This document shows, one piece after another, positions 2,003 through 33,338 of a DNA stretch of 64,000 bases. Position numbers and translations under genes: made by a program. The DNA is from Pempheris klunzingeri (lineage: Eukaryota; Chordata; Actinopteri; Acropomatiformes; Pempheridae). Within the stretch, counting starts at the first letter, position 1. Each line of letters opens with the position of its first letter. Where the stretch lies: positions 18,893,328 through 18,957,327 of the forward strand of contig NC_092019.1 in NCBI RefSeq assembly GCF_042242105.1, given 5' to 3'. The notes under the pieces were generated by a model that was given only the letters and a program-made list of their open reading frames with translations, ran no database searches and had not been told where the DNA came from.

Positions 2003-3445
2003 CTATATGAGTGCCACCGAGGTCAGGACAGTGTAAACCATCATGGACATAGAAACACTGATGGAAGTAGAGGAGTCTGGATCAAAAGAAAAAAAATATT
2101 ACTCCGTTTTTTCCATTTGTAACCACACATCAGTGTTGACAAGGAAGACAGATATCAAAGAGAGCTCAAATGCCACGCAGTGTGTGGAATGCAGAGGCTT
2201 CCAGGCCAGTGATGGCATTACGGGCGGTGCATATGTACCTCCCCAGGTGCATCTCCTGCATCTGATGGATGTAGTGCATGGACCCGTACATCCACATGTG
2301 TTTGAACCTCCAGAAGAAAGTTGCCCTCGGTAGGGAGTGAGCAGAACAGAAAAGAGTAACGCTCCCTTCAAGTTCTGCTTCTATTGGCCTCTGAACGATT
2401 ACTGGTTTGTCAGGTCCATCTGAACAGATGAGGAGGAAGAAGAGGAGGAAGGAGATCACTAAGACAGCAATGATTATGATGGATTTCAACCCCTGTAAGA
2501 TAATGTAAAATGTATTGATGGTAGCTGTGTTGTATTGAAGTACATTTGAAAGTACTTACAATAGACTGTAAGGGCGCATTTGGTCGTATCAAAGCTCACA
2601 TCATTGCTGACATTGCAAAGAAACTCTCCAGTATCCATCCTGCTCACAGGGCTGATAGACAACACCCTGTTGCCATCATGAAAGCTGTATCCGTTTCCAG
2701 GAACCAAAGGTTTGCCATCTTTCATCCACACTCTGGTAGACACGAAGCCGTGAGCATTGCAGGTTAGGTTCACAGAGGTTTTGCCTTCTATTAAGTTTTC
2801 TGTGGGGCAGGCCATAGTGGGTTTTGTCACTTTGGCTGTGAAGAAGAGATGAATAAAAAGATCATAATAAAGTTAGTGACACCAGGCCCAGGCAATGTGA
2901 TTATACATCCAATTACACAAGCGTCGTTTTCAATCCCTTCCTAACATTAGATACAGTGTCAGAGTAATAAATCATACATACTGTGCACCTCCAGCTTGGC
3001 AGCTCCATGAAGCTGCTCTGCTCCCTGTGAGATGAGGAGTAATTCATATTCTCCACTGTCTTTTTCAGTCAGATTCCTGAGCACCAGAGAGCCAGTAGAT
3101 TTATCCACGGTGATCCTGTTCTCATAGCCTTGACCCACTACATCTACGCTGGTTGAGGTTATTACATTGATGGTACCGTTGAAGCTCCAAGTCAAAGCCA
3201 GAAATGGGTTAGCGGGCGGTTGTACAGATGTCGTGAAGGTCACGCTCTCCCCTGCTGCTCCACGAAGTGAGTCCACAGTGAGCACACCGGCTCCATAGCA
3301 AAGACCTACTGAAATATGGACACAGTTAACCAACAAATCACAACCTGTAGTTCTACTACTGATGAATCTGCAAATCATTTCTAATCCATTTCTCACCTGA
3401 GGAGAGGAACACAAGTATGATTGACCTGAGAAACGTGTAGTTCAT
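2003..3445 (-). CDS. CEACAM-like protein with three Ig domains and probable GPI signal
   Basis: Five exons: 3397-3445 (leader MNYTFLRSIILVFLSS), 2982-3308 (N-terminal V-like domain without a cysteine pair, with the DSGEYELLL motif), 2560-2835 (C2-like domain, LTCNAHG and DTGEFLCNVSN), 2177-2419 (domain opening YGPDKPVI, cysteines in LFCSAHS and YICTARN) and 2003-2076. The last exon encodes a Ser/Thr-rich stretch and a hydrophobic C-terminus ending LTSVALI, typical of a GPI-attachment signal. Introns are phase 1 and the model gives about 322 residues. The donor after the third domain is weak (GTGGCA at 2176). If it is not used, the frame meets TGA at 2166-2168, giving a roughly 301-residue product with no anchor. 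The role is inferred to be cell-surface adhesion or recognition; either the GPI form or a secreted form is possible. Confidence 0.6.
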
Positions 3446-6623: not shown

Positions 6624-7246
6624 TATATTTCTAATAAAACTGACTTTTTGAATAGGCCAAAATTTAACTGCATCCCACTGGTAGGACTATTTCTAATATA
6701 ATATAACCATCTAAAAGTGAAAAATAGGACCACATGTTATATTATAAACACTGCAAAGTTAATTTCCTGTTATGGATTGCTTACAGAAGCTAATGTTATT
6801 CTTGTTTGGTAAGCTACTTAAAATAACAGTTACATACAGGAGAAACATGACGGCAGCATCATTGCTAACATCGCTGTCGGCACATGAACCTAATATGGTA
6901 ATAATCGGGGCTGCTGCTGTCATCTTCTTGCCCAAGTGGAAAAAAAGTGGACAACAGCACATTCAGATATATTGGTAAAGGTAGCACTGTTCATTTTTCT
7001 TTGCTTCAGGCAGATTACGATGTTTGAACTTTTTTCATCTTCTGATCATTTGCTAGAAAAGAAGTGAAAGGCTCATAAGAGGAAATTGTCACCGTTTGGA
7101 TCAACTGTATGCTAGAATGCATAATAAATTGTCAGTAATCAATGGCCTATAGTCGTCTTCTCAGATAAACGGAGTGCTTCTCTTCAAAATAAATGCATCA
7201 TTTTCATTAAATCTTAGTAATTAGTTCAAAACTCACCTGTGAGAGT
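6624..7246. other. 3' flank of the minus-strand receptor gene
   Basis: AT-rich sequence just downstream of the stop at 7247, presumably including the 3' untranslated region. I saw no clear AATAAA on the minus strand and no domain-bearing frame. Confidence 0.3.
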
Positions 7247-10200
7247 TTATAAGTTCTCATATATCGCCGAAGTGTTCTCATACACATCATCTTCTTGTTC
7301 TAGACAAAAAATAGCTTTGATACATCTGATTATTCACATGAACAATTTGTGTCATTGTAATATACTGTAGTCTATTCTTATTATTTGTTATATATTATTA
7401 AATCTATACTGTATGAGGATGAAGTAACACCAGATAAATACTAACCTTTTTCATTAGCATGCAGCGGAGCTTTGTTGTTGATTCTGAAGTATTAAAAATA
7501 AAGCATTATTCAGCCATGCAACCAGGTATGACTCGAAATGTCTATTGTTTCAATAGGTCATGGTGTCTGGGTAATATTTATGAAAAACATTATATGGCAG
7601 ATTTCTAAACGTTAATATAAGATTGTACACTGGTACGGATTCATGTGATATGTATATAATGTCATTAATCATTTTATAAAGATTGATGTGACCGTTATTG
7701 TATAGACTAAAGTGTGTCTAATGTGTAATGTTAGAGTAAGTTTAGTGTTAAGTTAGGGTTAATCTGAGGTCAGTCATCTGTTAATACATGACAAAAATGG
7801 GAGAGATGTTCGGCGGATATCACTATGAGGGGGATTTTTCACGTACTTTTTAAAAAAAATATGGTATCCTCCAGCAACTACTCCTGCACAAGCAACTATG
7901 AAACATGCTATAACTATTCCAGCTATGGCGCCAGCTGAAGGTCCAGGTCGTCTCTCTGGAAAATTGTGACATGAAACAGAAAAAAAAAAGTTTTTTTCAG
8001 AGTGAGTGCAAAACACTTCAAATTGCATGCAGTACAACAATCATATTGTTTGATCAGGGGCAAACTGGCAGATATTTGCAGGAAAAGTTGCTTTGATTTT
8101 AGAATTTCAAAACACATTTATCACATCCCGGTGGTGCAGAAAAGCTGCAGATAACAGACGCCTTTGGAGTGCCTGCCACTCTTCAAAGGTGATAAAACGT
8201 GTATGTTTATCAAGATGAAGACTACTGGTTTTCTCCCCACTAGGCTTGTATCTAAAGGCTAGGTGGGTAATGGAGGTGAATAATCATTGCTAAATTTTGG
8301 ATAACTCTTTTTAAAAGGCAATTAATTGCAGTGCTGCATCTCAGGCCGTTGTCTCATAAACTTAAAGGCAGAATGAGTGGGATTTGTGTGGGATTAAGTT
8401 TGATCCTCGTCCCTGGTTCCCTGGCTGGGAGCTACACACCCACTGATACAATAAATATAATACTAATAACTGACTGGTGACCAGTCCAGGGCGTAACCTG
8501 CCTCTCGCCCAAAGTCAGCTGGGATTGGCTCCAGCCCCCCTGCAACCCTTAAGGATAAGTGGTACAGACAATGGATGGATGGCACGCTGTGTTGTTCAAT
8601 ATCCAGTCTACAATCAACACCATCTTTGTACCTGTTACAGACAATTGATGGACCACTGATGATGTTCTCCCAGTTACATCATTCCTCGCTTCACAGGTGT
8701 AGTTGCCACTGTCAGAGAGTTCAGTCGTTCTTTTAGTGAACACAGGAGAGTTGTGTATCTCCATCTCATTCAGTGTCCAGGTATAAGTAGCAGCAGGTGT
8801 GGACTCAGCAGAGCAGTGTAACGTCAAGGGCTTTTTCAAATGTATCTCACTTGGACCTTTGATTTGAACATTATCTGGTCCATCTGGAAAACAGCACCAA
8901 TAAGAAAGAAAATAAAAGTCAAAAATCCTGTGTTACAGCAAACATATTAGCATTACACTGTTATGGCAGTCATCGTTTTATACACTGTACAGTATGTTAC
9001 CTACAGTTAACAATCATGATGTATGTGGCTACTTCACTGTTGATGGGGTTGCTGATTCTACAGGAATATTTTCCCTTGTCTTTTTTACTCAGACTTTTAA
9101 AAGACAGCGTTTTTTTGTTGAAATCCTGAGAAAGATTTGAACCATCCTTCATCCACTCTCTGGTGAAGACAGAGCCAGCAGCATTGCAGGTTAAGTTGAC
9201 AGGGTTCCCCTCAATCGGCTGGTTTGGTGATGACGTGACAGAAGCACCTGATATTCTTTCTGTTGGGCAAAACAAAAACAAAGACATCATGGATTTTCTG
9301 TGAAAAAATCCAAATAACAGGAACAAAAGTAACTCACGGTTGGCTGAGTATACAACATGCCAAATACATGCCACTATCCACATACTTTAACAACAGCCAG
9401 TGACACATGACATAACAGTGAGTTCTTAGATCGACTGAATTGGAATTTGCATGGACTTTTCCAGTCAGAACTTTTGCCTGTAAGGTTAAACAAGTTCAAA
9501 GTTGTTAAATGTTGTTATTTTACTGCAATCCCAAATGGTACACAATGGTAATGATTTGAGTGTCTTTTAAATTATTTAATACTGAGGCCCACAGAATTCA
9601 GTACCCACCTTTGCCTATGCAGATAACTAAGTAACTAACTAACTAACTAACTACTATAGCCGCCAAATGTCTTAATTCCAACTTACCCAGTACAGAGACA
9701 ACTGCAGGCTGAGAAGTTTCATGTCTCAGAGTTTTGCTGTTAAAGGCCTGACAGCTGTAGTTTCCACTTTGACTCATCTGAATGTTAATCAGTCTGAGCT
9801 CTGGTCCAGTATCATTCAGCAAGTCTCCATTAAGAAACCACATAAACTGGGCAGAAGGTGTGGATACAGCTGAGCACATCAGTCTGATGTTTGACCCTTC
9901 TCCATAGTATTCTTGTGGGAGATCTAGTGTCAGATTAACATTTTCTGGGCCGTCTGAATGTAGGCAAGAAATGAACAGAAAAACAAATCATGCTGGTTGC
10001 ATGAAAACTAAAAAGGGAAATGGCATGCAGCTTAGCTCAGTGTGAGAGGATTAATATGCACAACTTCATCATTATACATCAAGTATATAAAAAAGATTCT
10101 GTATTTAATGTCATAGAGCACAGCAAAACACACTGACTGATAGTGATTTACTGCATTTGACACCCTGGTGACATACTGGATTTCATTAGTTTGATAAATG

Positions 10201-12706
10201 TTTTTTCTAATATTTTGTTCAACCCATGGGGTCACAAAAAAACATAAATAAACAATAAAACAGGGTAAGAACACTCCTCACTGAGCTGTGACAACAATCT
10301 AAACCCACTCTGATGTTTGCATGCAGATAAATAAAATACTGAGCGTGTAGGTTTTTAACTCACAGCTGATGGAGATGTTTACTGGCTCACTCTTGTCGTC
10401 ACTGACAGGATTGAAAACTTGACAACTAAACTGTCCCTCGTCATAGCGGGTCACATTGGTTATAGTGAGATTGGCGCCTCCATCAGTGAGCTGAACTCTG
10501 TCACTTTGTGTAACCTCAGAGCTGCCGTTCAGCCAGTGGAAAGATGGAGAGGATCCAGAGGAGGAGCAGGACAGACGGACAGAGCTGTTGAACTCCACCA
10601 AGTCTGTGCTGCTGAGAGTTACTATCACATCAGAGATTCGTGCTGTGGACGACAAAAAGGTGTGTTTTTGGTGGTCACTCTTTAGAATCAGATTTCAATA
10701 AAATGCAGTCCAATTTAGCACCAGTTAGTGTGTATGCCTTTGAAACTCCCATCAATGTCTCTCTAATACAGACTATACACAGCAAACTGTGCCATCTAGT
10801 ACAGAACATGTCCCTGCCTCTGTTCAAAGATGGCGTATTATGATTTAATACAACCGTCTGTTGTCACCTGTGATGACAACTGATTAAACTCCATCACTGA
10901 TGAAGTCAATGAGATGCAGTTTGAAAGAGCTGGAAATTATTAGTTACACTTTTCATACTTTTTTTGTACAAGTTGCTTTAAAGGAACCTAAAAAACACAG
11001 TTTTGAATGACTGATTTGAATTTGAGTTGACTGTCTTTTATTGATCATGTTTTTGTTAAACTGAGAGTCTATTTGCATGACGGCCACTATTTGGCTATTC
11101 AAACCCAGTCTGCAGTATAAAGAACAACAAATTCCTCAGATGAATGTGGCTGTGGGGGCAGAGTCCTATTGAATCCCATATGAGTCCAGCTGTTAAGATT
11201 GATACATTTATTTGTAGACTGAGTGAACTTATATATTTCAGGTTTCTTCTGTTATGATCAGTTTTCAGTCGCAGTTTGCTTTGGTTTAGGCACCAAAACT
11301 ACTTGGTTTGGGTTAAAATAATGAGTCAAATTCAAATATAAAAGGCGAGGTACATTAAACACAGCATATACTGTTTCCAAATTGCACCAGGTTTGAATAC
11401 AATTTTTGGCTGAAACAATATGTATTTCTTGCTCAACTGTTGTGAATAATGTCCATTCAGCATTATAGGAGATTCAACATGTGAAACATGTGCTCACCGT
11501 ATACGGCCAGTGTCGTGGTCCCAGAGATCTCTTCTGTTCCCTGTGGTGTGATGATAATTGTGTATTTTCCACTGTCATTTAAAGCCAGATTTCTGAGCTC
11601 CAGAGATGCAGTAGATGGGAAGAAAGTGATCCTGCCTTCATACCCTGGACTAGTTATGTTGACAATATTTGCGGTGATTATATTTTTAGCACCAAATTTC
11701 CAGTTTGCTGTTACAAATGGTTTTTCTGTTGGAGGCAGTGATGTGTTGAACATCACCATCTCTCCCACAGTTGCATTCAGGGGACCGTCTGGCAACAAAC
11801 CAGATCCTCTGGTTAAACCTGGGGGAGACAATATGGGCCACTGCGATGATGAGACAAAACAAACAACACAAAACATAACCTGTTGCACACAGAAGGCTCG
11901 TCACTCTTGTCTTAGCCCAGCTGTAGCTTTGGGTTTCTTCCCTAAATTCCAAATGACTGCAAACAGAAACAACACATCTGAATAAAGTTAAGGTGACTGT
12001 CAAATTGCTTTACACAGCAGGGTGTCAAAAATATGTGTGTGACCTCTTCAACCCTTACGTAAGGGTCTTCTAAGTGTCTTCTCACTGATAGAAAATAATG
12101 ATCATACCAACAGGGGAACTAATTTTCTGAGAGAGTCTCAGAGGTACTTCACTTTCTGCATGCTTAATGATTATCTCTGCTTCATGAGTACATTATCTAT
12201 TAGTAAATATTTTTTTGGACTGACTTCTGTCTTTTGTGATAGGCTTCTACGTAGAATATATTCAGACACTTGTTCTAATGCAATATTAATCACAAAATAG
12301 TATGTTGCCATTGCGTGTGCAGTGGACTCACGTTGTGTGAGTTAGGAAAAGACATCATTTGATTTTAGTCAATTATTCATCAAACAAAATATAGTTCCAT
12401 GATACAAAAAAGTCTGAGGTGTCATGTTATACTACGCTAAATGTGGACATCTATCAGTGATATCACTCTATTTGAGAAGCTCAAACCACCTTACATGCAA
12501 GTGTAAAAGGCTGAACTACCCATTTACAGTACCATTATACCGGCAAAAGCAAAACAGGGGGGGTGTAATCTGACACTGTAAAGCATCAATAATTGGTGGT
12601 CACAAATCAAGAAACAAGTCTAAAAATACTTGCTTTTTTTATCATTTGGTAAGAGCTCACCTGAGATGACTCCCAGGATGATGAAGCATATCACAGCTAT
12701 TTCCAT
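7247..12706 (-). CDS. CEACAM-like transmembrane receptor, five Ig domains, YEN-motif tail
   Basis: Nine exons: 12661-12706 (leader [15 protein letters not shown]), 11498-11818 (cysteine-free V-like domain), 10364-10642, 9687-9953, 9005-9259 and 8632-8883 (four C2-like domains), 7847-7955 (membrane segment, about residues 482-505), 7446-7483 and 7247-7299 (tail). All phases agree and the product is 539 residues. Two junctions create a Tyr-Gly-Pro linker, as in mammalian CEACAMs. The tail ends [14 protein letters not shown], with Tyr529 and Tyr536 in YxN contexts known to suit GRB2-type SH2 domains; there is no ITIM and the spacing does not fit an ITAM. The membrane segment has no charged residue. 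Exons 2-6 with their introns are near-identical, inverted, to those of the gene at 16541-26110. A surface adhesion/recognition receptor is inferred, with signalling unlike its ITIM-bearing twin. Confidence 0.85.
8460..8585 (+). repeat. Dispersed teleost repeat tail ending in ATGG repeats
   Basis: Sequence around the phrases CAGTCCAGGGCGTAACC and GGGATTGGCTCCAGCC, ending in GACAATGGATGGATGG, resembles a very common fish repeat 3' tail, probably LINE-related. It lies in intron 6 of the minus-strand receptor gene, just outside the end of the inverted-repeat arm at about 8607. Confidence 0.55.
8607..11830 (-). repeat. Left arm of a gene-sized inverted duplication
   Basis: Read on the minus strand, this block matches 16939-23317 on the plus strand almost base for base through exons and introns. 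It spans exons 2-6 of the receptor gene. The inner edge falls 12 bases upstream of exon 2 (shared TGTCTCCCCCAG), and the outer edge about 25 bases past the exon 6 donor. Exon 2 differs from its partner at 5 of 321 bases and exon 3 at 1 of 279, counted by eye. The arm lacks one exon pair and the 1.5 kb insertion present in the right arm. Confidence 0.9.
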
Positions 12707-13984
12707 TTCATCTGCAGTATCCCGTACGACTGGAGAAAAGAGCAATCACACTTGTAATAGAGGATGGTAGTACAAGGAAGTACTGCACGCATGGGATTTT
12801 CCCATCATCATACCTCTGAAGGCTCAACAACTCCACTCAGTTGATCATTAATGGTAAGCATGACAAACTTCTGATGGATTACCATCTATCATATCCATGG
12901 TGTTCAGACTATGAGTCCAAATGACTCATAGTCTTTGCCTCTATACCATCAACAGGTCACAGTTCTCATTCATCCTGTGAAATCTCAAAATCTACTTGAT
13001 GACTTGTTCAAAGAGTCATGCTTCTTTTTTCTGAACAATTAAAGACAAGTTTGAAAGACACTGCTGATACAATTGAACTGATAAAAGTTTGTTAAAGGTC
13101 CTGGGCGAAGTTGATTGCATTGCAGCAGCATCCAACTGATGCATGTTGAATCAGAAATCACCCCCCCTATTTCTTTTTCTTCTTCTTCTCAGAGTCATAA
13201 CTAAGTCAACACACAGATTAATCTAGCGGCTCCATGACATCATTACATTACCTCCTGTTTACATTACCATTAGCTGGTTAGCTTAGCTTAGCACAACTTG
13301 AGATAGTTGGCTTTGAAATTGTAAACTTTATCTTTAAGAAGTCATTTGAATTAGTGTCTCTTTAATAGAGCACAAGGCTAGTCTAGTAGAAGACTTAACT
13401 TCTGCGTGGCTCAATTTACCCCTCATCAGGGGCTGAGCTAAGTTGAACCAAAAGCTTTCATTTGGAAAGTCATATTTCCACTGTAACTGTTTTGTTTTTT
13501 TTTATATCCAAAGTGATTATTCCCATGGATGCACCACATTCTACGATATATGTACACATTTTGCCCCTACTTTAAAGATGCCTCAAGAAAAAACGTAACG
13601 TAATATCAATTGCAACAGTAAAATATGTGTTAAATTTAGTTCCAGCTCTTCATCTGAGCTGTGTGACATTTACACTGAATGAATATCAAATACCAGCACT
13701 CCATGCTCTTTATGGCCACACAATGAAAATATTCTAGATGACCTTTGCATCCTTTTAGAATTTCCTTCAAACTCATCCTGACACTTTCAGTGTCTTTAGA
13801 AAAGAAGGAACTCTCCAGTGCTCTCAGTGTGTCTATGTGGGGTGAGAGTGGTTTGGTCTCCTAGCTGATAGCTTTGCCATCATCCCCTCTCTCCCACCAC
13901 CTCCACTGGATCAAGGGGGCAGCCCAGGACAGAGCTGGCCTGTCCTGTTGGGGTGTGGTTACAGCTGCAGGTATCTTCATGAAG
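12707..13984. other. Spacer between the head-to-head receptors, left part
   Basis: This is the presumed promoter region of the minus-strand receptor. It includes an 11-base perfect hairpin at 12906-12934 that contains an AP-1-type TGACTCA site. Around 13260-13300 is a GCTGGTTAGCTTAGC-like patch common in dispersed fish repeats. No gene is seen. Confidence 0.35.
12906..12934. promoter_or_regulatory. Hairpin with an AP-1-type site upstream of the minus-strand receptor
   Basis: AGACTATGAGT and ACTCATAGTCT form a perfect 11-base inverted repeat around a 7-base loop. TGACTCA at 12923-12929 matches the AP-1 consensus and spans the junction of loop and right arm. It lies about 200-230 bases upstream of the start codon at 12706. 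A regulatory role is inference only. Confidence 0.3.
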
Positions 13985-15672
13985 GCTTCAGCTGCCAGAT
14001 GAGCTGAACGAGTTCTACGCCCACTTCGACGCACTCAACACTGACCGACGCAGAGAGATTACACCAACAGAGGCAGCGCAGAGCTCCTCTCTCACTGTCA
14101 TCAGCTGAGGTGTGTAAAGTTCTCAGCAAGACTAACCCCCGGAAAGCAGCAGGCCCTGACAACATCCCTGGCCGAGTTCTGAGCGTCTGCTCCTCAGAGC
14201 TGGCGGAAGTGTTTACGGACATCTTTAACCTGTCCCTCGTTCACTCATCTGTGCCTACCTGTTTCAAATCCACCACCATAGTGCCCCTCCCCAAGAAAAA
14301 AACAGTTACCTGCCTGAATGACTATCGTCCCATTGCACTCACCTCAGTTGTGATGAAGTGCTTTGAGAAAATAGTAATGACACACATAAAGAAGGCCGTC
14401 CCGGACACACTGGACCCCCTGCAATTCGCCTATCGTCAGAACCGCTCCACCGACGATGCCGTCAACACAGTCATCCACACAGCCCTCACACACCTCGAAA
14501 AGAAGGACACTTAGGTCCGAATGCCGTTTATTGACTACAGCTCAGCATTCAACACGGTCATCCCAAGTAGACTGGCTGAGAAACTGCTCACCCTCGGACT
14601 AACACCCCTCCTCTGCAACTGGGTACTGGACTTCCTCACAGACAGACCCCAGAAAGTCAAGGTTGGCAACAGGTCATCAGGCACAAGAACAGTGAGTGAG
14701 CCCTCTCCTGTTCACCCTCTTCACCCATGACTGCATCTCCTCCCAGGATGACGCCACCATCATCAAGTTTGCTGATGACACGACAGTCATTGGCCTGATC
14801 ACCGGTGGAGAAGAGGCAGGCTAGAGGGAAGAGGTGGCTCAGCTGGTATCCTGGTGCCATGAAAATAATCTCTCTTTAAATGCTGAGAAGACTAAAGAGA
14901 TGATCATTGATCCGAGGCAGCGGGTCTGAGGTGGAGAGGGTGAAAACCTTCAAACTCCTTGGCACTCACATCAGTGAAGACCTCAAATGGACTCACAACA
15001 CACAGCACATCATCAGGAAGGCTCAACAGAGACTGTACTTCTTAAGGAAGCTGAGAAAATTCGGTCTGCCCACCAAACTTCTCAGCAACTTCTACAGATG
15101 TACAGTGGAGAGCATCCTGACCAACTCCATCACAGTATGGTATGGGAACTGTACCATACAGGAGAGGAAGGCTCTCCAGCGTGTCATTAAAACCACACAG
15201 TACATCTGCGGAGCAGCCTTCACACCACTCCATCACATATACGACAGCCGTGCCACAAAGAGGGCACAGAACATTATCAGAGACAGCACACACCCACAAC
15301 ACACACTCTTCACACTCCTTCCATCTGGCAGACACTACAGGAGCGCCACCGCCAGAACAACAAGACTGAAAAACAGCTTCCATCCACAGGCCATCAGGCT
15401 CTTAAATAAATACATATAACCTGTCATAAGCTGTGAACCACACTACCTCTGCAACCATAAATACTTGTATACTTTTTGCACACTATATTTGCACTATCCT
15501 TTTAAATTATTCTTCTGTACATTGCCCTCTTTTTTTATATTTATAATTGTTTTTCTATTTTTTATTCTTGTGTCTATGTGGAGGGAAACGAACAAAGTAA
15601 GAATTTCATTGCTCAGTGTCACCATCGCGTTCTTACTGTGCACATGACAAATAAACATCTTGAATCTTGAAG
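13985..15672 (+). mobile_element. 3' fragment of an L2/CR1-type LINE, decayed
   Basis: Reverse-transcriptase and C-terminal regions are visible in several frames: [13 protein letters not shown] and [18 protein letters not shown] (14110-14514), [14 protein letters not shown] (14521-14730), the catalytic FADD at 14768-14779 in another frame, and a C-terminal part (14907-15419) with KAQQRLYFLRKL and LLPSGRHYRSA. A TAG at 14512-14514 and frame changes break the coding sequence. The 3' end at about 15672 is a short TTGAATC-type repeat after AATAAA, as in L2 elements. The 5' part is missing. It inserted in the spacer between the two inverted receptor genes. Confidence 0.85.
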
Positions 15673-16540
15673 CTACAAGATTTGAGGTGGATCGGATGAC
15701 ACCAAAAAATGGCCCAAAATGTACCAAATTTGGATATATAATGGAAAACGCTGGGCTTCCTGTGCTCTTGACGGTATAGCCTCAAGAGGCTTTTTTGCAG
15801 GTCTGGATGTGATGCACGTGCTCATCAAATTTCATCTTTCTAGGTCAAAGTACTGGGAAGGGCTTCAACTTTGAAATCATTCAGGGGGTGCTATTGAGCG
15901 AAAAAATATAACATTTTTCACCGGCCCTGACAAGTTTGCCAATTTTCATGAGTTTTTGATTATCCCTTGCACCTACTACAACTACTACTACTACAAATAA
16001 TAATGATAATAACTCTTTGAATTACAATAGGCACTAAAATAATGCAATAACTGTGAAATCTTCAGGCTTTTACTTGCTGGATTCATAGTTTAATTCAGCA
16101 GTCAATTAGTCTGGTTAAAGTTCAGCACAGATCCCCACCAACTAACTGTCTAATTATATGGGCATTGTTTTTTGCTGCATAATCATCAATATGGTCATTT
16201 TGAGCTACAGGCTTTTGAAGGTGCCTTAATCAACCAGTGTGAAAGTTAAGTCGCCTAAACAAAGTTTCCTAAATAATTACATTTTCCTTTGGGATTATTA
16301 AAACCACAATAGGTGACACATCTGTTGATCATTCACACCAGCATGACAGCACAAACACAAGTCCACCACAGGGGGGCAGAATCAGCGCCTTCATCTCATT
16401 ATGCCTTTAAAACTCAGCACGCAGACAGCTCCACATTTACTGAGTGATATAAGGAGAGCTGCCTCAGGCTCGCATTCATTTGGACACTCACCGTTTATGG
16501 ATGATCTTTGCTGCTCTTTGCATCTCACGAAGAGAAATCA
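15673..16540. other. Spacer and promoter region of the plus-strand receptor
   Basis: AT-rich sequence with no coding evidence. The last 200 bases precede the start codon at 16541 and contain a TATA-like element at 16446-16454. Confidence 0.3.
16446..16454 (+). promoter_or_regulatory. TATA-like element of the plus-strand receptor
   Basis: GATATAAGG lies about 90 bases before the start codon at 16541, a distance that fits a TATA box with a 5' untranslated leader of roughly 60 bases. Confidence 0.35.
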
Positions 16541-19500
16541 ATGGATGTATTACCCTTGCTTTGTATCGTCTCGGTGGCTTTCACGGGTAAGAAAGAAGTT
16601 TTAACTTCGCCTGTCATCATCGTCTGCAACTTGAAAAGTCAATGATGAAGGAGCAGATGGTTTTCTTATACTTCCTTATACTGTGCTGGTTCCCTGTTGT
16701 GATTGATCTGATCTCTTGATAACTGGGTCACTGTGTTACACTTGATTTCCATAATTAGATAAGCTTCAAATATTTATAATTAACTGTTTCTTGCTGTTTA
16801 ATAAACAGACATCCATATCAGGGTAATATGAAAATAGATGACAACTACTGCCTGGCTGCGCTCATCAGTTTTTTGTGCAAATATATTAAGATACATTGAG
16901 TATGTTGGGTACATTGTGATTGTCCTTCTCAAACCCGCTGTCTCCCCCAGGTTTAACCAGAGGATCTGGTTTGTTGCCAGACGGTCCCCTGAATGCAACT
17001 GTGGGAGAGACGGTGATGTTCAACACATCACTGCCTCCAACAGAAAAACCATTTGTAACAGCAAACTGGAAATTTGGTGCTAAAAATATAATCACCGCAA
17101 ATATTGTCAACACAACTGGTCCAGGGTATGAAGGCAGGATCACTTTCTTCCCATCTACTGCATCTCTGGAGCTCAGAAATCTGGCTTTAAATGACAGTGG
17201 AAAATACACAATTAACATCACACCACAGGGAACAGAAGAGATCTCTGGGATCACGACACTGGCCGTATACGGTGAGCACATGTTTCACATGTTGAATCTC
17301 CTATAATGCTGAATGGACATTATTCACAACAGTTGAGAAAGAAATACATATTGTTGCTATGCAAATAATTATATTTTATACTTTTATATTTGACTCATTA
17401 TTTTAACCCAAACCAAGTAGTTTTGGTGCCTAAACCAAAGCAAACTGCGACTGAAAACTGATCATAACAGAAGAAACCTGAAATATATAAGTTCACTCAG
17501 TCTACAAATAAATGTATCAATCTTAACAGCTGGACTCATATGGGATTCAATAGGACTCTGCCCCCACAGCCACATTCATCTGAGGAATTTGTTGTTCTTT
17601 ATACTGCAGACTGGGTTTGAATAGCCAAATAGTGGCCGTCATGCAAATAGACTCTCAGTTTAACAAAAACATGATCAATAAAAGACAGTCAACTCAAATT
17701 CAAATCAGTCATTCAAAACCGTGTTTTTTAGGTTCCTTTAAAGCAACTTGTACAAAAAAAGTATGAAAAGTGTAACTAATAATTTCCAGCTCTTTCAAAC
17801 TGCATCTCATTGACTTCATCAGTGATGGAGTTTATTCAGTTGTCATCACAGGTGACAACAGACGGTTGTATTAAATCATAATACGCCATCTTTGAACAGA
17901 GGCAGGGACATGTTCTGTACTAGATGGCACAGTTTGCTGTGTATAGTCTGTATTAGAGAGACATTGATGGGAGTTTCAAAGGCATACACATTAACTGGTG
18001 CTAAATTGGACTGCATTTTATTGAAATCTGATTCTAAAGAGTGACCACCAAAAACACACCTTTTTGTCGTCCACAGCACGAATCTCTGATGTGATAGTAA
18101 CTCTCAGCAGCACAGACTTGGTGGAGTTCAACAGCTCTGTCCGTCTGTCCTGCTCCTCCTCTGGATCCTCTCCATCTTTCCACTGGCTGAACGGCAGCTC
18201 TGAGGTTACACAAAGTGACAGAGTTCAGCTCACTGATGGAGGCGCCAATCTCACTATAACCAATGTGACCCGCTATGACGAGGGACAGTTTAGTTGTCAA
18301 GCTTTCAATCCTGTCAGTGACGACAAGAGTGAGCCAGTAAACATCTCCATCAGCTGTGAGTTAAAAACCTACACGCTCAGTATTTTATTTATCTGCATGC
18401 AAACATCAGAGTGGGTTTAGATTGTTGTCACAGCTCAGTGAGGAGTGTTCTTACCCTGTTTTATTGTTTATTTATGTTTTTTTGTGACCCCATGGGTTGA
18501 ACAAAATATTAGAAAAAACATTTATCAAACTAATGAAATCCAGTATGTCACCAGGGTGTCAAATGCAGTAAATCACTATCAGTCAGTGTGTTTTGCTGTG
18601 CTCTATGACATTAAATACAGAATCTTTTTTATATACTTGATGTATAATGATGAAGTTGTGCATATTAATCCTCTCACACTGAGCTAAGCTGCATGCCATT
18701 TCCCTTTTTAGTTTTCATGCAACCAGCATGATTTGTTTTTCTGTTCATTTCTTGCCTACATTCAGACGGCCCAGAAAATGTTAATCTGACACTAGATCTC
18801 CCACAAGAATACTATGGAGAAGGGTCAGACGTCAGCCTGACGTGCTCAGCTGTCTCCACACCTTCTGCTCAGTTTTTGTGGTTTCTGAATGGAGAAAAAA
18901 AGTCTGATACTGGAACTGGATCAAAGCTCAGACTGACAGACATTCAGGAGAGTCAGAGTGGAAACTACAGCTGTCAGGCCTTTAACAGCAAAACTCTGAG
19001 ACATGAAACTTCTCAACCGGTAGCAATTTCTGTTCTGAGTAAGTCTGACTAAAAGATTTTGAAGAACATTGGAAGACGTGTGGATAAATAGATGGGGTTT
19101 AAGCATGTGCCTGTGATAAGTCTGTCTTAGATATAAAAAAAAGGAAGCTCTAAACATTTGTGGAACCAACAGAACAATACATACATACATTTAAAATCTC
19201 CTGCAGTTTTTGCTCGCACAAACACAACTGATCGGTCTTGGAATGAAAAATGTTTGAGGTCGTACCAAATTACTTTGTGGAGCGGTCAAGCGTGCAGCAA
19301 AAGTCTGGCAAACAAATATAACTGATAAACCTGTAAGATCAGCTGACAGTGAATAAGCATTGCACCAAGTACAAGGTATCGGATAGGATAAGATATAATG
19401 CTGCACAGTGAGCCGGACAACTAAGTTCATCCTGTCTGGTGTATGATCTGTGTTGTCTTTGATTAATTATTGTACAGTAATTTGGTGACTCTATGCCTCA

Positions 19501-22500
19501 CCAGTCTTGTAGTGTACAGATCATTGGACCACAACATAATTTATGCTATGATTCAGGCAGCTGCAGTGATGCAAGAATCATCTTCCTGAAAACACACATA
19601 TATGAGAAAAACTGTTCAGTGTATCAATTCAGGCAGATTCTGAGTCATGACTGCTAAAAGTAAAGTACATGTTCCTCAGTCATACTTTTGTTATTGCTGT
19701 CAGATTTCAGTGTGTCAAAACTAACTCAGTGTCAAACAGTCAGGTCTCAAGAGGCCAAACTGCACAGCTGACAAGTCCATGTCTCAAGTCCACATTTCTC
19801 CTGACTACATGCATTTGTCCAGCTCAATTACACACCTTGGACATTAGTAATATTGGCCGTTTTATCATTTTAATGGTACCGATTGAATTGGATAGTATCA
19901 TTGAAATGGGATTTATTCCCACTCCCTACATTGCTCTCCTCTATTGAACACTGTTCCCTTTGATTGGCAAGAAAGTGCCACCTTTCATCAAATCACTGTG
20001 TTTTTCACCCACAGCGCGTGTTGCCAATATTGTGGTAACTTTAAACACCACAGACTTGTTGGAGTTCAACAGCTCTGTCCGTCTGTCCTGCTCGTCCTCT
20101 GGATCATTCCCCTCTTTCCTCTGGCTGAACGGTAGCTCTGAGGTTACACAAAGTGACAGAGTTCAGCTCACTGATGGAGGCGCCAATCTCACTATAGTCA
20201 GTGTGACCCGCTATGACCAGGGACCGTTCAGGTGTCATGTGTTCAATCCTATCAATAATGGCACCAGTGATCCCGTAAACATCTCCATCAGCTGTGAGTT
20301 TCTAACCTGCTCGTGCACATCATATGCTTGCAGCTTTCACTATACTGCGTACGTGCAGCTTCATAGTTGCATCTGTGCGCTTCAAAGTTGATGAATGAGG
20401 CTTCACACCACGCTAAGTTGTATGTCACGTAGCATTTCTTTCAAACTGCTAACATTACTTTCTGGTGATTTTATTTTTGTTATTCACTCCCCACATACCG
20501 CGCACTGTAGATGGCCCAGAAAATGTTAATCTGACACTAGATCTCCCACAAGAATACTATGGAGAAGGGTCAAACATCAGACTGATGTGCTCAGCTGTAT
20601 CCACACCTTCTGCCCAGTTTATGTGGTTTCTTAATGGAGACTTGCTGAATGATACTGGACCAGAGCTCAGACTGATTAACATTCAGATGAGTCAAAGTGG
20701 AAACTACAGCTGTCAGGCCTTTAACAGCAAAACTCTGAGACATGAAACTTCTCAGCCTGCAGTTGTCTCTGTACTGGGTAAGTTGGAATTAAGACATTTG
20801 GCAGATATAGTAGTTAGAGGTCAGAAAGTTGGTATTTGAGCATCCACCTGCAATATCTGCAAAGGCATTAAATTAGTTTAAAAAAAAAGACATGCAAATC
20901 ATTACCATTGTGTACCATTAGGGATTGCAGTAAAATAACTGACAACAACAACTTTGAACTTAACATTTAATTGTTCAACCTTACAGGCAAAAGTAATCAC
21001 CATTACTATATTGATGATGGAACAGGTGACTAATTGCAACACAAACTAAATGACTCCTCGCTTCCCCGCTCCCAAGGACCTGTGCCACAGCAGATGCAGT
21101 CCAAACAGAATTGATTTATTAACAGCTAGCAACAGAAGCTTTCAGCTTCAGGGTAAGATCAGCCAAAACAATGAACAACACATCTTATGAAAAACATCAA
21201 CTAAATTTCCTAACTGAAGAAAAGAAAAGAAAAGAAAATTCAGGGCTCTTACCTGTCTCCCCAACAACCCCTACATCTACCTGGTGCTGCTTTTAGTTTA
21301 CGCTTACAATCACCACACTTTGAAGTCAACTTGAAAGACACAAGATGACGCATCAGGGTCCACTTGGGAGCTGAGAAGGAGTGGAGTTGTTCTCAACAGG
21401 TGCCATTTTAAAGTAGGCGCTATCAGGGCCTCAGCCAATCAGCAGCCACCACCTGCAACTCAGTACAACACTGGATAAACAGAACAGCACCACCCTCATG
21501 CAGGGAGGAAACACAACAAACAGTAATCCAAAAACACATAATGACCCAGGTCATAACACATCTCATAGTGATTTTAGAGAATTATCACTTAGCTCTAATG
21601 TTTTCCTCAGATCGATGTACTTATTAGCGTCTTTCAGCTCATTGTTTTGGTTTTCCGAATTCTCAACTTGACTCTCAAAGCATCGTTTTTGACATCAGAC
21701 AGCCATTTTCAGTAAAACCTACTGTAGGCTAACTGCCGACACCAAACAACAAACAGACAAAGTGACTAGCCGGTGATCATAGTGGAGCATTTAGTAGCTG
21801 AAGCACCACATATTTCCCTCTGGAATTGGTGGAGACCAAAACAGATCTAAAAGGAGAGTGAAGATTGGATTCACATTCACCACCTGGCCAGAAACACGGC
21901 TGGTGTGACCGTGTGACCTAAACATTGTTGGGGGTAATACATACAATAATATATTACCTTTGGTAGAAATAAAATAATATAACGCATAAGTAATAGAATT
22001 TCAGTTACATTATTACATTTACCGTGTTAACAATTTCCAAGCTCACCGTGGAGCCAATTTGCCCAATGAGGACCAGACAGAGCAGGAGAGATCCTTCCAC
22101 ACCGACCAACTGTTTACCTCTCAATGGTTTCACACCCTCTTGAATGCTCTCTTCAAATTTTTTTCAGCTTTCTCTTGAGGTAGTTGTTGCCGATATTTAA
22201 TCTTAGATGGAATTTATCACCTGCTTGTGGCTGCCTGCCCATATGCTGCCACTGACCCTAAATAGCCACCTGTTTCCTAACAAGTTTGCCACATCAACTT
22301 AAACAGTAGTTAAGTGTTAATGTTGTGTTTTATCTCAGGTTTAAGGATTTTATGCTCCATTAACACATTACATGGTGAAGGTCATGAGTGAAACTGATGA
22401 AATTGATGACGGCTTTAGGTTAAGTATGGGTTATGTAGGTTTTAGTGGAACTCCGTTACTCAGTGTGTGAATTGACACACTATCTTCAGTCGATCTAAGA

Positions 22501-25500
22501 ACTCACTGTTACGTCATGTGTCATTGGCTGTTGTTAAAGTATGTGGATAGTGGCATGTATTTGGCATGTTGTATACTCAGCCAACCATGAGTTACTTTTG
22601 TTCCTGTTATTTGGATTTTTTCACAGAAAATCCATGATGTCTTTGTTTTTGTTTTGCCCAACAGAAAGAATATCAGGTGCTTCTGTCACGTCATCACCAA
22701 ACCAGCCGATTGAGGGGAACCCTGTCAACATAACCTGCAATGCTGCTGGCTCTGTCTTCACCAGAGAGTGGATGAAGGATGGTTCAAATCTTTCTCAGGA
22801 TTTCAACAAAAAAACGCTGTCTTTGCAAAGTCTGAGTAAAAAAGACAAGGGAAAATATTCCTGTAGAATCAGCAACCCCATCAACAGTGAAGTAGCCACA
22901 TACATCATGATTGTTAACTGTAGGTAACAAACTGTACAGTGTATAAAACGATGACTGCCATAACAGTGTAATGCTGATATGTTTGCTGTAACACAGGATT
23001 TTTGACTTTTGTTTTCTTTCTTATTGGTGCTGTTTTCCAGATGGACCAGATAATGTTCAAATCAAAGGTCCAAGTGAGATACATTTGAAAAAGCCCTTGA
23101 CGTTAAACTGCTCTGCTGAGTCCACACCTGCTGCTACTTATACCTGGACACTGAATGAGATGGAGATACACAACTCTCCTGTGTTCACTAAAAGAACGAC
23201 TGAACTCTCTGACAGTGGCAACTACACCTGTGAAGCAAGGAATGATGTAACTGGGAGAACATCATCAGTGGTCCATCACTTGTCTGTAACAGGTACAAAG
23301 ATGGTGTTGACTGCAGATTTTGTTGATTCTCTTGGATACTGTGATTAACCCACAGTACCTCTGATAATTTAAAGAGTAGCAGATTTCCTAAAGTGTTTTT
23401 TACAGATCCATCCCATTAGCACCATGAGGCAGATTTATTTTATGCTTATGGCTTATGGACAATAATGGCTTGCAATTCAAAACTCCACTTAATCACCTTT
23501 AAAAGAGCACTCCAACATTTAACATTGCACTTCTGTTTTTCATTGTCTGTCTCAATATGGACAGACTGGAAAAAATGAATGCATGCAAATAGGTATAATT
23601 ATAACTGGTCAACTGTGAAATCAGGGAGAAATGATTGTATGCTTTGAATCCATGGGTATAAGTTCCTGGTTAATGCACCAAAAATTATGTTCTTATCCCC
23701 TTTTTATATAAACAGTCCCAGGCAAAGCACGCTGTTTGGGTGGTTGCATCGCTGGAATAGTATGTGCAATTTGTGCCGTCGGTGGAGCAGTTGCTTCTGG
23801 AGGATACTACTTTCATACAAAACAGTAAGTGGGTAATAGCTTTAAGATATAACCATGAAGCCATTATTGCCATTTTTGGAAGACTCAGAGACCCGGCAGC
23901 TAAAGGTGAAAAATAAGTCATGGTCAAAAATAAGAAAAGGTCAATACCAGATAGGCAAGGGAGGCTGGGCAAACTTATCCACGTAAGGACCAAGTATAGG
24001 GACAAGTCCAAAAAGCAGGCAGGAATCAGGCAGGCAGGGATGATGGCTGGGTTACATAGCTGAGAGCACATAAGACAGCCTGGCAGAGAATGAATGGGAA
24101 TGGTGGGGACATGTGTGCAGGTGGGCGGGTTTAGGGATGCTTTTCTGTGGTTGTAGCAATGAAGAGAGGAGTCCAAGATTCATTCAAGAAGTTTATGTAG
24201 GTGTACGAGCTCGGAGTCTAAAATCACAGGCATAGATGAGACTAAGGAATACAGAGTAAAGCTACCACATATATAGGACTCTACAAACTATATCTGGTTT
24301 CGGATACATGAGAGCATGTCCCAAGACTTGATCTTTCCTTAGAACAACCAGTTGTCCAGACAAAGCGGAGTCGGAAGAGTAGTATGCTGACTTGAGAGTA
24401 ACATATATACCATGTAAGACACAAGTTCCTACAGAATCATGTGAATCATTCTAACAGCGGGGGAGGTCAGGTGATGGTGTGGGCAGGCATGTTGGCGCGT
24501 GACAAGAGAAGAGCACGGACAGAAAATGTGGAACTAGAATCAGGCTGTAACAATACATTTTTGTTTACTCAACCAACAAAAGGTTGATGTTCACTTGCCT
24601 ACGTGCTGCTAGCCTCGCAATATATGTTTTCTGTATAGTCCTAAGCCTGATTTTAGCTCTGACTTTTATGCTCCTCAGTGGAGATGCACCTTGACATGGT
24701 ACAACTTCATAGTTCAAACTGTGAGGGATTAAGATTTACTAATAAATGGATATATTTGTTTTCTTTGTGTTTTGGTAAACAAGCAGTAACAATGTAAAAG
24801 GAGTTGTGCAGATGTCAGGCTCCATTTTGTCAGCGTCAGCCATTATGTAACATCTGTGACAGACCTTACATATGATCATCAAAACAATTTAATAATTTAA
24901 TCAGAGGCACCAAGTCACTGAGTAAACCCAGTTATTGTCCATATTATGTTGCAAAAAGTCAGATGATGCCTGTCTAATTTACATACTAATGACTGATTAC
25001 CTCTTTAAACAGAAAACGGACAAAAAAATCCTCTAATAGCAAAACCGTCTCCAGAACAGGTAACTGTCTCAAATGTTTTTGTGTGTGTGGGTGTGAGTGT
25101 GTTGTATATGTGTTTCTGTATTTATACAGTATTATTTCTTCCCTGAATTGAATTCCTCTAAGCATTGTTTGTTTTTCTTGTTGCGAAGGTAGCGGAGGAC
25201 AGGACAACACAGCGTACGCAGGAGGCCAGGTACAAGTCATCCTTTTGTTAACATGAAGAAACCAAGTTACTCTGATTCAGGCTACACAAGTAATCGTAAA
25301 AGCATTTACATACCAAAACCCTAAATGATTTGCAGTTTCTTTCCAAAAAGTAAGTGAATTAGTAATTTGTAAATCAGGATATGTTTATGATTCACAGATT
25401 ATATATAAGGTATATTATGTTATCACATATAGTCCACAATGCGATAGAGTACAGATCATGTCTTTGTTCACTATTGGAAGCATATAATATATAGCACAAA

Positions 25501-26110
25501 AGCCTGTATTCATTAACATTATTAACAGTAGTAGTTGTAATAGATGTAAGAAATTAGTAACAATAAAATACTAAGTTGCTTGTGAATCTACATGAAATAC
25601 TAAAATGATGCAAAGAATTTTGATGCTGAAATCTTAAATGTGAAATTCTTTTAATAATTTGCTATTGTACATTAGTGTCCAGTCTGTGATCATTTGTTTA
25701 GGATTTGTTTAGGTTAATTCAAAGACGCCTCCTCTCCCAGTCTATCAGACTGATAGACTAATGTCAAGATAACTGTAAATGCATGTTGGATTTTGTAGAG
25801 TTTTAAACAGACATGATTGGACTCCGTGAACTTTAAATCAAGACAGTTATCTAATATTTTTCCCAATCTTTTTCTTTCCCAGGAGCTGAACTATGCAGAT
25901 ATCCGTTTTTTCCAGAACAACGATGGTGGGAGAGTCCAGCCGGAGTTACAGAATAACTCATCAGAATACGCTCAGGTCCAAGTGGCTAACAGTCCTCCTG
26001 CAGCATCCTCACCTCCTACCTATGATGTCCACATGCAGCAAATGAAGAGGTCAGCTCCTCAGTCAGGTGCTAACGATGCACAACTTTACTCTCAAATTCG
26101 CAAGACCTGA
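16541..26110 (+). CDS. CEACAM1-like inhibitory receptor, seven Ig domains, ITIM tail
   Basis: Twelve exons: 16541-16586 (leader [15 protein letters not shown]), 16951-17271 (cysteine-free V-like domain), 18077-18355, 18766-19038, 20015-20293, 20511-20777, 22665-22919 and 23041-23292 (six C2-like domains), 23716-23824 (membrane segment, about residues 665-688), 25013-25059, 25189-25229 and 25883-26110 (tail). All phases agree; the product is 798 residues. The tail has two ITIM-type motifs, LNYADI (Tyr727) and SEYAQV (Tyr752), plus PTYDV (Tyr770) and QLYSQI (Tyr792), which do not meet the strict consensus. In known ITIM receptors such motifs recruit SHP phosphatases, so an inhibitory surface receptor is inferred. 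The ectodomain is shared with the inverted gene at 7247-12706; this copy carries one extra pair of Ig exons. A candidate polyadenylation signal is at 27148-27153. Confidence 0.88.
18077..20777 (+). repeat. Tandem duplication of an Ig exon pair
   Basis: Exons at 18077-18355 and 18766-19038 are repeated by exons at 20015-20293 and 20511-20777. The first members share the TDGGANLTI and DRVQLTDGG motifs. The second members open with the same [20 protein letters not shown] and end with HETSQP. The inverted gene has only one pair, made of the equivalents of the first and the last of these four exons. Confidence 0.85.
20995..22490. mobile_element. Insertion of about 1.5 kb specific to the right arm
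   Basis: The two arms match up to about 20993 (the ...ACAGGCAAAAGT phrase) and again from about 22490 (AGTCGATCTAAGAACTC). In the left arm these points are only about 40 bases apart. The intervening sequence has no clear coding frame, and I did not recognise terminal repeats, so its type is open. It is an insertion in this arm or a deletion in the other; insertion is favoured because of its repeat-like character. Confidence 0.5.
23825..25012 (+). other. Long intron before the tail exons of the ITIM receptor
   Basis: Intron of about 1.2 kb between the membrane exon and the first tail exon. The sequence at about 23880-24180 is GC-richer than its surroundings and may be repeat-derived. The long minus-strand open frame there shows no domain and is not called. 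Confidence 0.3.
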
Positions 26111-30921: not shown

Positions 30922-33338
30922 ATTTTAATGTTCACCCCTCAGTGATGTATTTAAAGTTTAAACCAGCCTTATAAACCAGCCAAATAAAGCACTTCTACAA
31001 GGGAAAAGAAACTACCTGTTAGTATACAGTATGTATTACATATTACATAAAGATCTCTGGTAACAAACTAACATTAAATTTTTAGTTACAAAATATAACA
31101 GACCAACAAATATGTCCTTAAATCTAAACACATCTGGGTGATGCATTGGTGCTCTAACAGAGACCTTTTATTTTCCAGCTTCATTAAAGTCTTGCAGCTA
31201 GTAAATTAATGGATGTCTATAAAACCACGAGTGGTGGCATAACTGTAGAACTGATCGTTATTAATCTAACCTGCGGCAGTTGTTCTCATTTTCCTCCTGT
31301 ATTTGTAAAAGTACAAAATGTGTTTAAATATAGGCTACTGACTTTTTTCTTTTAAATGCCTAAAAAAGCAACCAAAAAAAGCATGGAAGCAACAGATGTT
31401 TGTTTTTTAATCTTGTCTAAAAAGACACAATAGAAAATCAAACTGAACTGGGACTGATAGATGCTTCATGGACAGGTGATTGTTAACCCAGCCAGAGAAA
31501 GAACCTTTTATAAGTCATGTGTCAGTAAATTGAAAATGCATGTGTAATAGACTATCGTGTGATACAGCCATGCTGCCTCCTCCTCTCTCTCAGGTGCACC
31601 AGGTTTTGAGGCCTGGGAGCAGATTTCCTGGACTGGTGAGGTGACAGCTGGTTTCACTACCACTTTCACCTGTTCCTCCTCTTGCTTCCCAAACTGTGAG
31701 TACACCTGGTCCTTTATGGGCCGCACGGTCGTCGGGAGCACATTAACCTGGACACCAGATGGTCTGGACAGTACAGTGGAATTACAGTGCAATGTGCTAA
31801 ATCCAGAAACAGGAGTCTCCAGCAAAATGACCTCCATTGTAGAAATTAAGAGTAAGTACAGCAGGTTAAGTGCTATACCAGTTGTGCCCATGTACTATAC
31901 TTAAATGCAATTTTGTACTTTACATGTCTACATTCATTTAATGCTAGTTTATACTTCCACTACACTGCATTTCAGAGAGAAACATTGTGAAGAAAAACTT
32001 CTCACATGGTTTCATTTCAAGTGTTTGAGATAAACATATGTAATATTTCACATAATAAGCAAAGAATCAGTCCAAAATTGTGAATGAATTCAGGTTTGTG
32101 AAGCAGAACTTTCTTCATCTCACCCCATTAATCACTTCACAACCCTTCAGAGTTTTCTTGGGAACTTTTGAGGGGGCTGGAACAGAATATGAAGTATGAA
32201 GGAACAACTTACTTCCACATTGATGCATCACAATCTAATGTTATATGGTATAATGTATGAGTTACGGGGGCCATTTTTCTGCAGAACGAATACTTTTAGT
32301 TTGACACTTAAAGTACATTTCAATTATATTTAATGCTAAGTACACTGATAGAAGTAAAAGATCTGAATACTTCCTCTGCTGTAGCTGTAACAAAAATGCG
32401 CTGAATCCATTATTTTCTGCATAAGATGCAGATTTAGACTGACACACAATTTAAATGTATTATCTCTGATGTGTGTTCTTATTCCTCTCTTCATGAATTA
32501 GAAATCTTCCCCATCTGCCGTCCTTTGCTACAGATCGAGTGTCTGTGCAAATCAGTCCATCAAATGCAGTCACTGGATCTGGTCTGCCATGATGCTGCAT
32601 CAGGTGACCTCTCAGATCTACTGAACCTTCAGACCCAGGTGGTCTGGTGCAAAGATGGGCAGAAAGTGACCCTATTTGAAAATATGCAGCTGCTGCAAAA
32701 CTCACTTCACTTTGACTCACTGCTGCCCTCCAATGCTGGATTCTACCAGTGTAAGACTGGTGTGTCTACAGCACCACAGACAAGAGTTTTCAGCCTGGGC
32801 TATCTGCTTAACTGTGAGTATTCATGAAGAGAAGACTAGTCATTTATTATTATCACTGGAGTGAACTTTCTAATCTTCCATAGTTGATCCATGAAATGTC
32901 ACCATCAGCGGATCTGACACTGTGTTTCCTGGCAGACTGAGTAAATTCACCTGCTTACCGAGCTGTACCTTAAATGTGGAGTGTACTGTCAAATGGCAGT
33001 TCAGGGGGGGTTTCCCCATTGGAATCTACTTTTCCGTCCATGATAATGAGCTCAGGTGGACCCCTTCCATACCTGGGGCTTTCCAAAACTTCACTTGCGT
33101 TGCAGAAAATGCAGCTGTTGGACGCTCTGCTGAGGCCACCAAAGTGGTAGAGGTTAAAGGTACTGACAACTGTTTAGTATTTGCACTTGCAAATTACGTG
33201 TTAAATCCAGTTTAATGATTTGATTTGTTCTGTTTGTGACAAAGTGGGTGAGCACTTCTCTTGATGTTCTCACCACTTGTCCCTGGATATTTCTATTTTC
33301 TTTCTATGTGTGTTTTGCTTTAATTAACCAGGCTGGTG

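Follow-up and report, generated by a model that had tools for sequence, protein, structure and literature searches.

Probable gene conversion between opposed CEACAM-like genes with shared ectodomains and different tails in the fish Pempheris klunzingeri

The closest systems described so far are CEACAM receptor pairs of other vertebrates. In Xenopus, ceacam301/303 and ceacam350/351/368 set a gene with immunoreceptor tyrosine-based inhibitory motifs (ITIMs) against an opposed partner; conversion is limited by splice borders, the flanking introns have diverged, and the ligand-binding domains of the paired receptors share 80-93% (PMC5112662). Mammalian CEACAM1, with CEACAM3 in human or CEACAM28 in dog, likewise combines an ITIM receptor and a partner within the CEACAM locus, their N domains being matched by conversion (PMC2832619). 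CEACAM1 and CEACAM1L of crocodilians and turtles are also opposed, and their identity can run from the N exon into introns (PMC13278318, preprint). Teleost CEACAMs such as zebrafish ceacamz1 have pafah1b3 synteny and N plus Ig-C2 domains (Ig, immunoglobulin; PMC8274849); the word "paired" does not occur in the text of that paper, nor does "gene conversion" in two older surveys covering teleosts (PMC3628338, PMC4079198). Among the matches listed from open-licence literature, going by titles and the opening of abstracts, none dealt with paired or converted teleost CEACAMs, so such work may be in print elsewhere. Here we describe two CEACAM-like genes, A and B, that resemble the above systems in the traits just named and lie in 64,000 nucleotides of Pempheris klunzingeri (assembly GCF_042242105.1, contig NC_092019.1, forward-strand positions 18,893,328 to 18,957,327), hereafter the window, to which all coordinates refer. 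Gene conversion between these opposed old paralogs probably homogenised their ectodomain blocks from the N domain to Ig4, introns included, while the tails of the two partners differ.

A first-pass annotation of this DNA had pointed to two CEACAM-like genes in opposite directions, which is borne out by clean predicted splicing, by relatives in PDB and Pfam and by synteny. The exon models of both genes, annotated by hand and checked by script, are predictions from DNA alone; all splice junctions are GT/AG with agreeing phases, each Ig domain is encoded by one exon, and in both genes the leader exon, the N exon and every Ig exon end in phase 1. The genes and their shared block comprise the following features.

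7247..12706, minus strand: gene A, a predicted CEACAM-like receptor of 539 aa with leader, N domain, four Ig domains, transmembrane (TM) segment and short tail with two YEN motifs (splice check, Pfam Ig)
12706-12661, 11818-11498, 10642-10364, 9953-9687, 9259-9005, 8883-8632, 7955-7847, 7483-7446, 7299-7247, minus strand: exons of gene A
16541..26110, plus strand: gene B, a predicted CEACAM1-like receptor of 798 aa with leader, N domain, six Ig domains, TM segment and a tail with LNYADI and SEYAQV (splice check, Pfam Ig)
16541-16586, 16951-17271, 18077-18355, 18766-19038, 20015-20293, 20511-20777, plus strand: exons of gene B, first part
22665-22919, 23041-23292, 23716-23824, 25013-25059, 25189-25229, 25883-26110, plus strand: exons of gene B, remaining part
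8607..11830, minus strand: left arm of an inverted repeat, 3.2 kb of gene A (ectodomain exons N to Ig4 with their introns)
16939..23317, plus strand: right arm, 6.4 kb of gene B (the left-arm block plus a 1745-bp unit and ~1.5 kb of intron without counterpart in A)
7847..7955, minus strand: TM exon of gene A, homologous to that of B, with a synonymous divergence (dS) of 0.79
23716..23824, plus strand: TM exon of gene B, 109 nt long, entered in phase 1 and left in phase 2, the same in A
8285..8350, minus strand: residual old intron homology outside the arm, in the intron before the TM exon (66 bp, 71% to 23464-23527, collinear)
18768..20512, plus strand: unit of 1745 bp present in gene B and missing, as a clean alignment gap, in A (remainder of Ig2, Ig1', first part of Ig2')
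20994..22484, plus strand: ~1.5-kb stretch in the B intron between Ig2' and Ig3, absent from A as an alignment gap
9687..9953, minus strand: junction exon Ig2 of gene A, its first 62 nt as in B Ig2 and its last 265/267 nt as in B Ig2'
12661..12706, minus strand: leader exon of gene A, related to two stretches, 676-601(-) and 4727-4674(-), that look like leaders

The same annotation had described a near-identical inverted block. The repeat is real and its outer limits were recovered by two methods, but the arms are unequal in length (3.2 versus 6.4 kb) and identity along them is uneven. Homology does stop where it was said to, at the N-exon acceptor on the inside and just past the last Ig-exon donor on the outside, the edges lying 12 bp before the former and 25 bp past the latter. 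Compared with the B region at 150-bp steps, gene A has no more than brief, dispersed matches upstream of 11850; from there down to 8607 identity is 94.7-100% over the greater part of every step, the exception being 9600-9451 (best match 82% over 111 bp). Past 8607 the matches are short again, two of them collinear with B (71% over 66 bp and 65% over 88 bp). Just beyond this outer edge of A, 8480-8570 resembles an interspersed repeat, which we take to be one common in fish. The shared exons differ at between 1/279 and 5/321 sites (98.4-99.6% identity, taking B Ig2' as the counterpart of A Ig2); introns inside the arms differ at 10/803 (98.8%), 0/410 (100%) and 3/121 (97.5%) sites. The intron between Ig2 and Ig3 aligns at 366/391 positions (93.6%, 25 differences), with 1532 gap columns.

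Synonymous changes date the two parts of the genes very differently. Across the five shared ectodomain exons, 315 synonymous sites carry a single synonymous change, alongside 11 nonsynonymous ones, in a count that omits codons split at exon starts. The TM exons have the same length and phase and are homologous (none of 300 DNA shuffles and none of 2000 protein shuffles reaches the observed score), and they differ at ~12 of 24 synonymous sites (Fisher 9e-15 for the contrast). The block within the arms is hence far more alike than its homologous 3' flank. A dS of 0.79 between the TM exons is about that separating B from Ig1 of a neighbouring gene, D (0.79 for B Ig1', 0.90 for B Ig1). Together, these data indicate an old paralogy of A and B and a recent homogenisation of their ectodomains. 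Leader, membrane and tail exons had been placed outside the arms and called different; this stands for their placement and for the leaders and tails, but not for the TM exons. A simple whole-gene duplication was rejected on the TM dS against 1/315 in the ectodomain, and the nonsynonymous excess (11 versus 1) was not accepted as evidence of positive selection, being non-significant (P = 0.195).

Gene A looks like an old member of the left-hand, minus-strand cluster and not like a fresh copy of B, since its leader is kin to two left-hand stretches (74% over 76 nt with 676-601(-), E 3e-8; 78% over 54 nt with 4727-4674(-), E 1.6e-6) and that of B to none, the B leader region having no leader match anywhere in the window. 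The stretch at 676-601(-) may itself belong to a gene running off the left end of the window.

Divergence inside the arms is also informative. Mismatches amount to 5/399 in segment I (11830-11432), 4/1670 in segment II (11331-9662) and 14/833 in segment III (9439-8607). Segment II differs from I and III together (p=1.4e-4), and introns alone give 3/1124 in II versus 8/326 in III (p=5e-4); the limits of these segments were set post hoc, after inspection of the alignment, and the counts leave out the indel-rich 11431-11332 and 9661-9440, which hold 30 of the 53 alignment mismatches. Such an uneven spread is not readily explained by a single duplication and subsequent steady drift, and homogenisation probably occurred in more than one event.

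The Ig2 exon of A records a further rearrangement. The intron preceding it is identical to that of B at 410/410 sites, whereas the exon as a whole matches B Ig2 at just 235/260; the crossover falls within ~60 bp that are identical among A Ig2, B Ig2 and B Ig2'. The 1745-bp unit, whose ends can be placed anywhere within a shared stretch of ~60 bp, amounts to one more Ig1/Ig2 exon pair, giving B seven Ig domains versus five in A, N domain counted. Within B (18077-20777), Ig1/Ig1' and Ig2/Ig2' are 88-90% alike, and Ig2 and Ig2' start with an identical stretch of ~60 bp. Because B Ig1 and Ig1' are only 88% alike (239/272), the simplest reading is that the longer array of B predates the shared block and that A lost one unit. 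This no more than suggests copying from B to A, a direction that we do not claim, and by itself it does not prove B to be the donor. The other B-specific stretch, 20994-22484, has no further copy in the window at E 1e-3 and no end repeats. As a separate observation, 18077-20777 resembles exon-sized homogenisation inside one gene, its introns not being alike: Ig1-Ig2 against Ig1'-Ig2', the one pair tested, scored 13 against a shuffle maximum of 15, no better than chance.

The anatomy of the pair, the discordant ages, the junction exon and the uneven identity are direct observations, and the following sequence of events would account for them. Two old CEACAM paralogs would have lain in opposite orientation, B being CEACAM1-like with inhibitory-type tyrosine motifs and A carrying a short YEN tail. 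Non-reciprocal copying across the inverted pair, recent and probably repeated, would then have evened out the N-to-Ig4 blocks. In old paralogs homology survives as islands in the exons but not in the introns; in B, for instance, Ig1 and Ig1' are 88% alike, while the introns that follow them score no better than shuffles. Tracts anchored in homologous exons would therefore have their limits near the N-exon acceptor and shortly beyond the Ig4 donor, so that the leader with its promoter side, like the membrane exon and the tail, would keep a separate history. Recombination between Ig2 and Ig2', during or after copying, would most simply explain the loss of one 1745-bp unit from A. The first-pass proposal that edges at functional borders suggest conversion under selection is thus retained as to conversion, selection not being required if exon islands anchor the tracts. 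In a random-placement test, edges as near to exon borders as those observed had P=0.018, a post hoc value.

Other histories have to be weighed against this one. Had the B ectodomain block been copied once, inverted, and set between an unrelated leader and membrane/tail part, A would be a composite gene, and the sharp inner edge, the leaders without homology and the three of four arm introns that are as alike as exons would all fit. We nevertheless judge such a recent inverted duplication unlikely, and with it the composite gene built by inversion that had been put forward as an option, because the TM exon and a patch of the intron preceding it are collinear homologs outside the arm; moreover, uneven divergence of the arms misfits one event, and the insertion would have had to land frame-compatible at both ends. 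Segment II, at 4 mismatches in 1670, is at allele level, as expected if one arm were a misplaced haplotype or if consensus polishing had blended the two. An assembly artefact of this kind is very improbable, however, in a window without any N, with sharply different flanks, differences of 1745 bp and 1.5 kb between the arms, uneven identity, and intact splice sites and frame in both copies. Neutral concerted evolution, in which inverted homology alone keeps the ectodomains alike and no selection for a matched pair is involved, agrees with edges at the ends of homology and with the non-significant nonsynonymous excess (P=0.195). It is possible but rather doubtful, as both frames are intact, similar arrangements recur across several vertebrate classes, and the edges are close to exon borders (P=0.018, post hoc).

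Several points also weigh against conversion between old paralogs as we propose it. A and B show no detectable homology in their leader exons (280/300 shuffles score as high), leader introns (133/300), 1.2 kb of upstream sequence (97/100) or tail exons (C1 298/300, C2 127/300), and that of the TM-C1 (100/100) and C1-C2 (7/100) introns is not convincing. Without 5' homology, the common ancestral gene is evident at the 3' side only, and the synonymous count of the TM exon is based on just 24 sites. The B arm carries 1.5 kb without counterpart in A; A could have donated the longer array and then lost a unit, or B could have gained its unit from a third gene. The YEN tail of A depends on two small predicted exons, and a profile built from five N domains in the window matches titin first and CEA second, so that distant N-domain matches alone are not specific. 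Finally, 5 of the 107 N-domain residues differ between A and B, and one of these differences creates a glycosylation sequon in B only.

The last point qualifies the claim of the same ligand face. The N domains are near-identical as the presumed ligand-binding domains (102/107), and the differences fall at residues 21, 55, 57, 89 and 101. The changed base that gives B its sequon is the following.

17215, plus strand: changed base in codon 89 of the B N domain (Asn, sequon NIT; Ile in A, base 11554)

Residue 89 aligns with chain position 89 (Gln) of CEACAM6; the alignment scores a modest 7e-7 over the chain and 7e-4 over the stretch. Given Ile in A, Leu in the N domain at 2983-3306(-) and gaps in the two right-hand genes, it was probably B that gained the predicted sequon. 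In human CEACAM1, Q89 belongs to the GFCC' interface (PMC7979749), and two Opa adhesins lose binding to its common variant Q89H (PMC8860441). The predicted glycan site of B would lie on the likely binding face. More speculatively, the genes might form a receptor/decoy pair in fish, the whole ectodomain being matched by repeated long-tract conversion, with a decoy that signals through its non-ITAM tandem-YEN tail and with B beginning to escape through a glycan at the Q89-aligned site where the decoy is bare and hydrophobic; we advance this tentatively. If true, A and B would have been caught in an arms race, between one round of matching and the next. A scan of viral contigs for the N domain returned two pattern matches and no relatives.

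Outside the arms, the following features concern the tails and the space between the genes.

7247..7299, minus strand: last coding exon of gene A (splice model, motif scan)
25883..26110, plus strand: last exon of gene B, with LNYADI and SEYAQV
14008..15419, plus strand: remnants of the long interspersed nuclear element (LINE) type between the A and B leaders (a reverse transcriptase piece and an ALKBH8_N-type piece)

The reported contrast of LNYADI and SEYAQV in one tail with two YEN and no ITIM in the other was confirmed on the predicted exons: both B motifs are in frame in its last exon, and the predicted tail of A has two YEN and, by eye, no canonical ITIM. B thereby provides the predicted ITIM member of a pair. 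A shows neither of the usual marks of a partner, its tail having no ITAM (immunoreceptor tyrosine-based activation motif) spacing by eye and its membrane segment no charged residue. Among open reading frame fragments of at least 20 aa in the window, 12, that of B included, have at least two ITIM matches within 60 aa, so motif pairs are weak by themselves and an ITIM pair was rejected as proof; only one fragment, that of gene A, has two YEN. A tblastn search of the window with the B tail returned only B's own exon, and thus no ITIM exon downstream of A. Ten nucleotides past the A stop codon, 7231-7246(-) reads by eye as a strong splice donor consensus (CAG/GTGAGT), and a non-coding exon may come after the YEN one.

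The logic of paired receptors attributed to the locus is accordingly well supported as anatomy and matches published CEACAM cases. Beyond it, we infer transcripts and a ligand, as well as the direction of copying, and opposite signalling of A and B from motifs only. The YENL of the A tail reads as a YxxPhi sorting or uptake signal. B would engage SH2 phosphatases through its ITIMs, and A would engage GRB2-type or clathrin adaptors via YEN/YENL; we favour A as a putative activating or uptake/decoy partner. That A is instead an endocytic or adhesive form, and no activating partner, is a substantial possibility, though we lean away from it. A tail without ITAM spacing, a membrane segment without charge and the endocytic motifs described for reptile CEACAM decoys (PMC13278318, preprint) speak for it, whereas the two YEN also fit YxN, a motif that has been discussed for catfish LITRs as a site for GRB2 (PMC4810170).

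Assignment to the CEACAM family draws on several searches. Pfam finds a V-set on the B N domain and Ig_3 stretches in both genes (four in A, six in B). In PDB, the four best matches of the first 306 aa of B are CEA, CEACAM1 (twice) and CEACAM6, and for its N domain alone each of the 14 best matches is a CEA/CEACAM entry (best E 7e-7), among them Biliary glycoprotein and, at the top, CEACAM6, 8, 5 and 1. To the right of the genes lie PRR19, above the Pfam cut-off, and a piece of platelet-activating factor acetylhydrolase (PAFAH) IB (1.3e-28 to 7e-28 with alpha/gamma entries, 6e-24 with beta). We take the PAFAH IB gamma subunit to be PAFAH1B3, and PRR19 to be a CEACAM-locus neighbour. Judged by sequence and synteny, this is a CEACAM locus; the neighbours of zebrafish ceacamz1 include pafah1b3 (PMC8274849). 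Further CEACAM-like genes in the window have an N exon, Ig exons and ends that look glycosylphosphatidylinositol (GPI)-like by eye: 2003-3445(-), with two Ig exons, a short hydrophobic tailless end and an N domain 44% identical to that of B; 37928-41241(+), with two Ig exons (Pfam); and 43119-49882(+), with about ten Ig exons, two of which were run through Pfam. Between B and these GPI-type genes, 31563-33215(+) holds three Ig-like reading-frame pieces, one with a weak Pfam match below cut-off and two with none.

Compared with the known systems, A and B are probably a CEACAM receptor pair of a fish, homogenised by conversion, and they are unusual in three respects: the block spans the whole ectodomain, the partner tail is not of ITAM type, and the likely binding faces differ by a glycan site. 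Conversion in Xenopus is described for N exons (PMC5112662), and mammalian tracts cover part of the N exon in human (PMC5112662) or leader plus N in dog (2.2 kb, PMC2832619), whereas here the block runs from N to Ig4 with its introns. The partner tail is ITAM or ITAM-like in Xenopus (PMC5112662), of ITAM type in mammals (PMC2832619) and mostly furnished with ITAM or endocytic motifs in crocodilians and turtles (PMC13278318, preprint), against tandem YEN in A. Catfish LITRs are likewise fish Ig receptors for which YxN is discussed as a GRB2 site, but they belong to another gene family and carry YxN and ITIMs within one tail (PMC4810170). With two tails and a single glycan-site difference, the present pair would be a clean handle on what a decoy needs and would make it testable whether receptor-decoy matching by conversion arose repeatedly. 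It would also add bony fish to the mammals, frogs and reptiles for which CEACAM paired receptors have been published.

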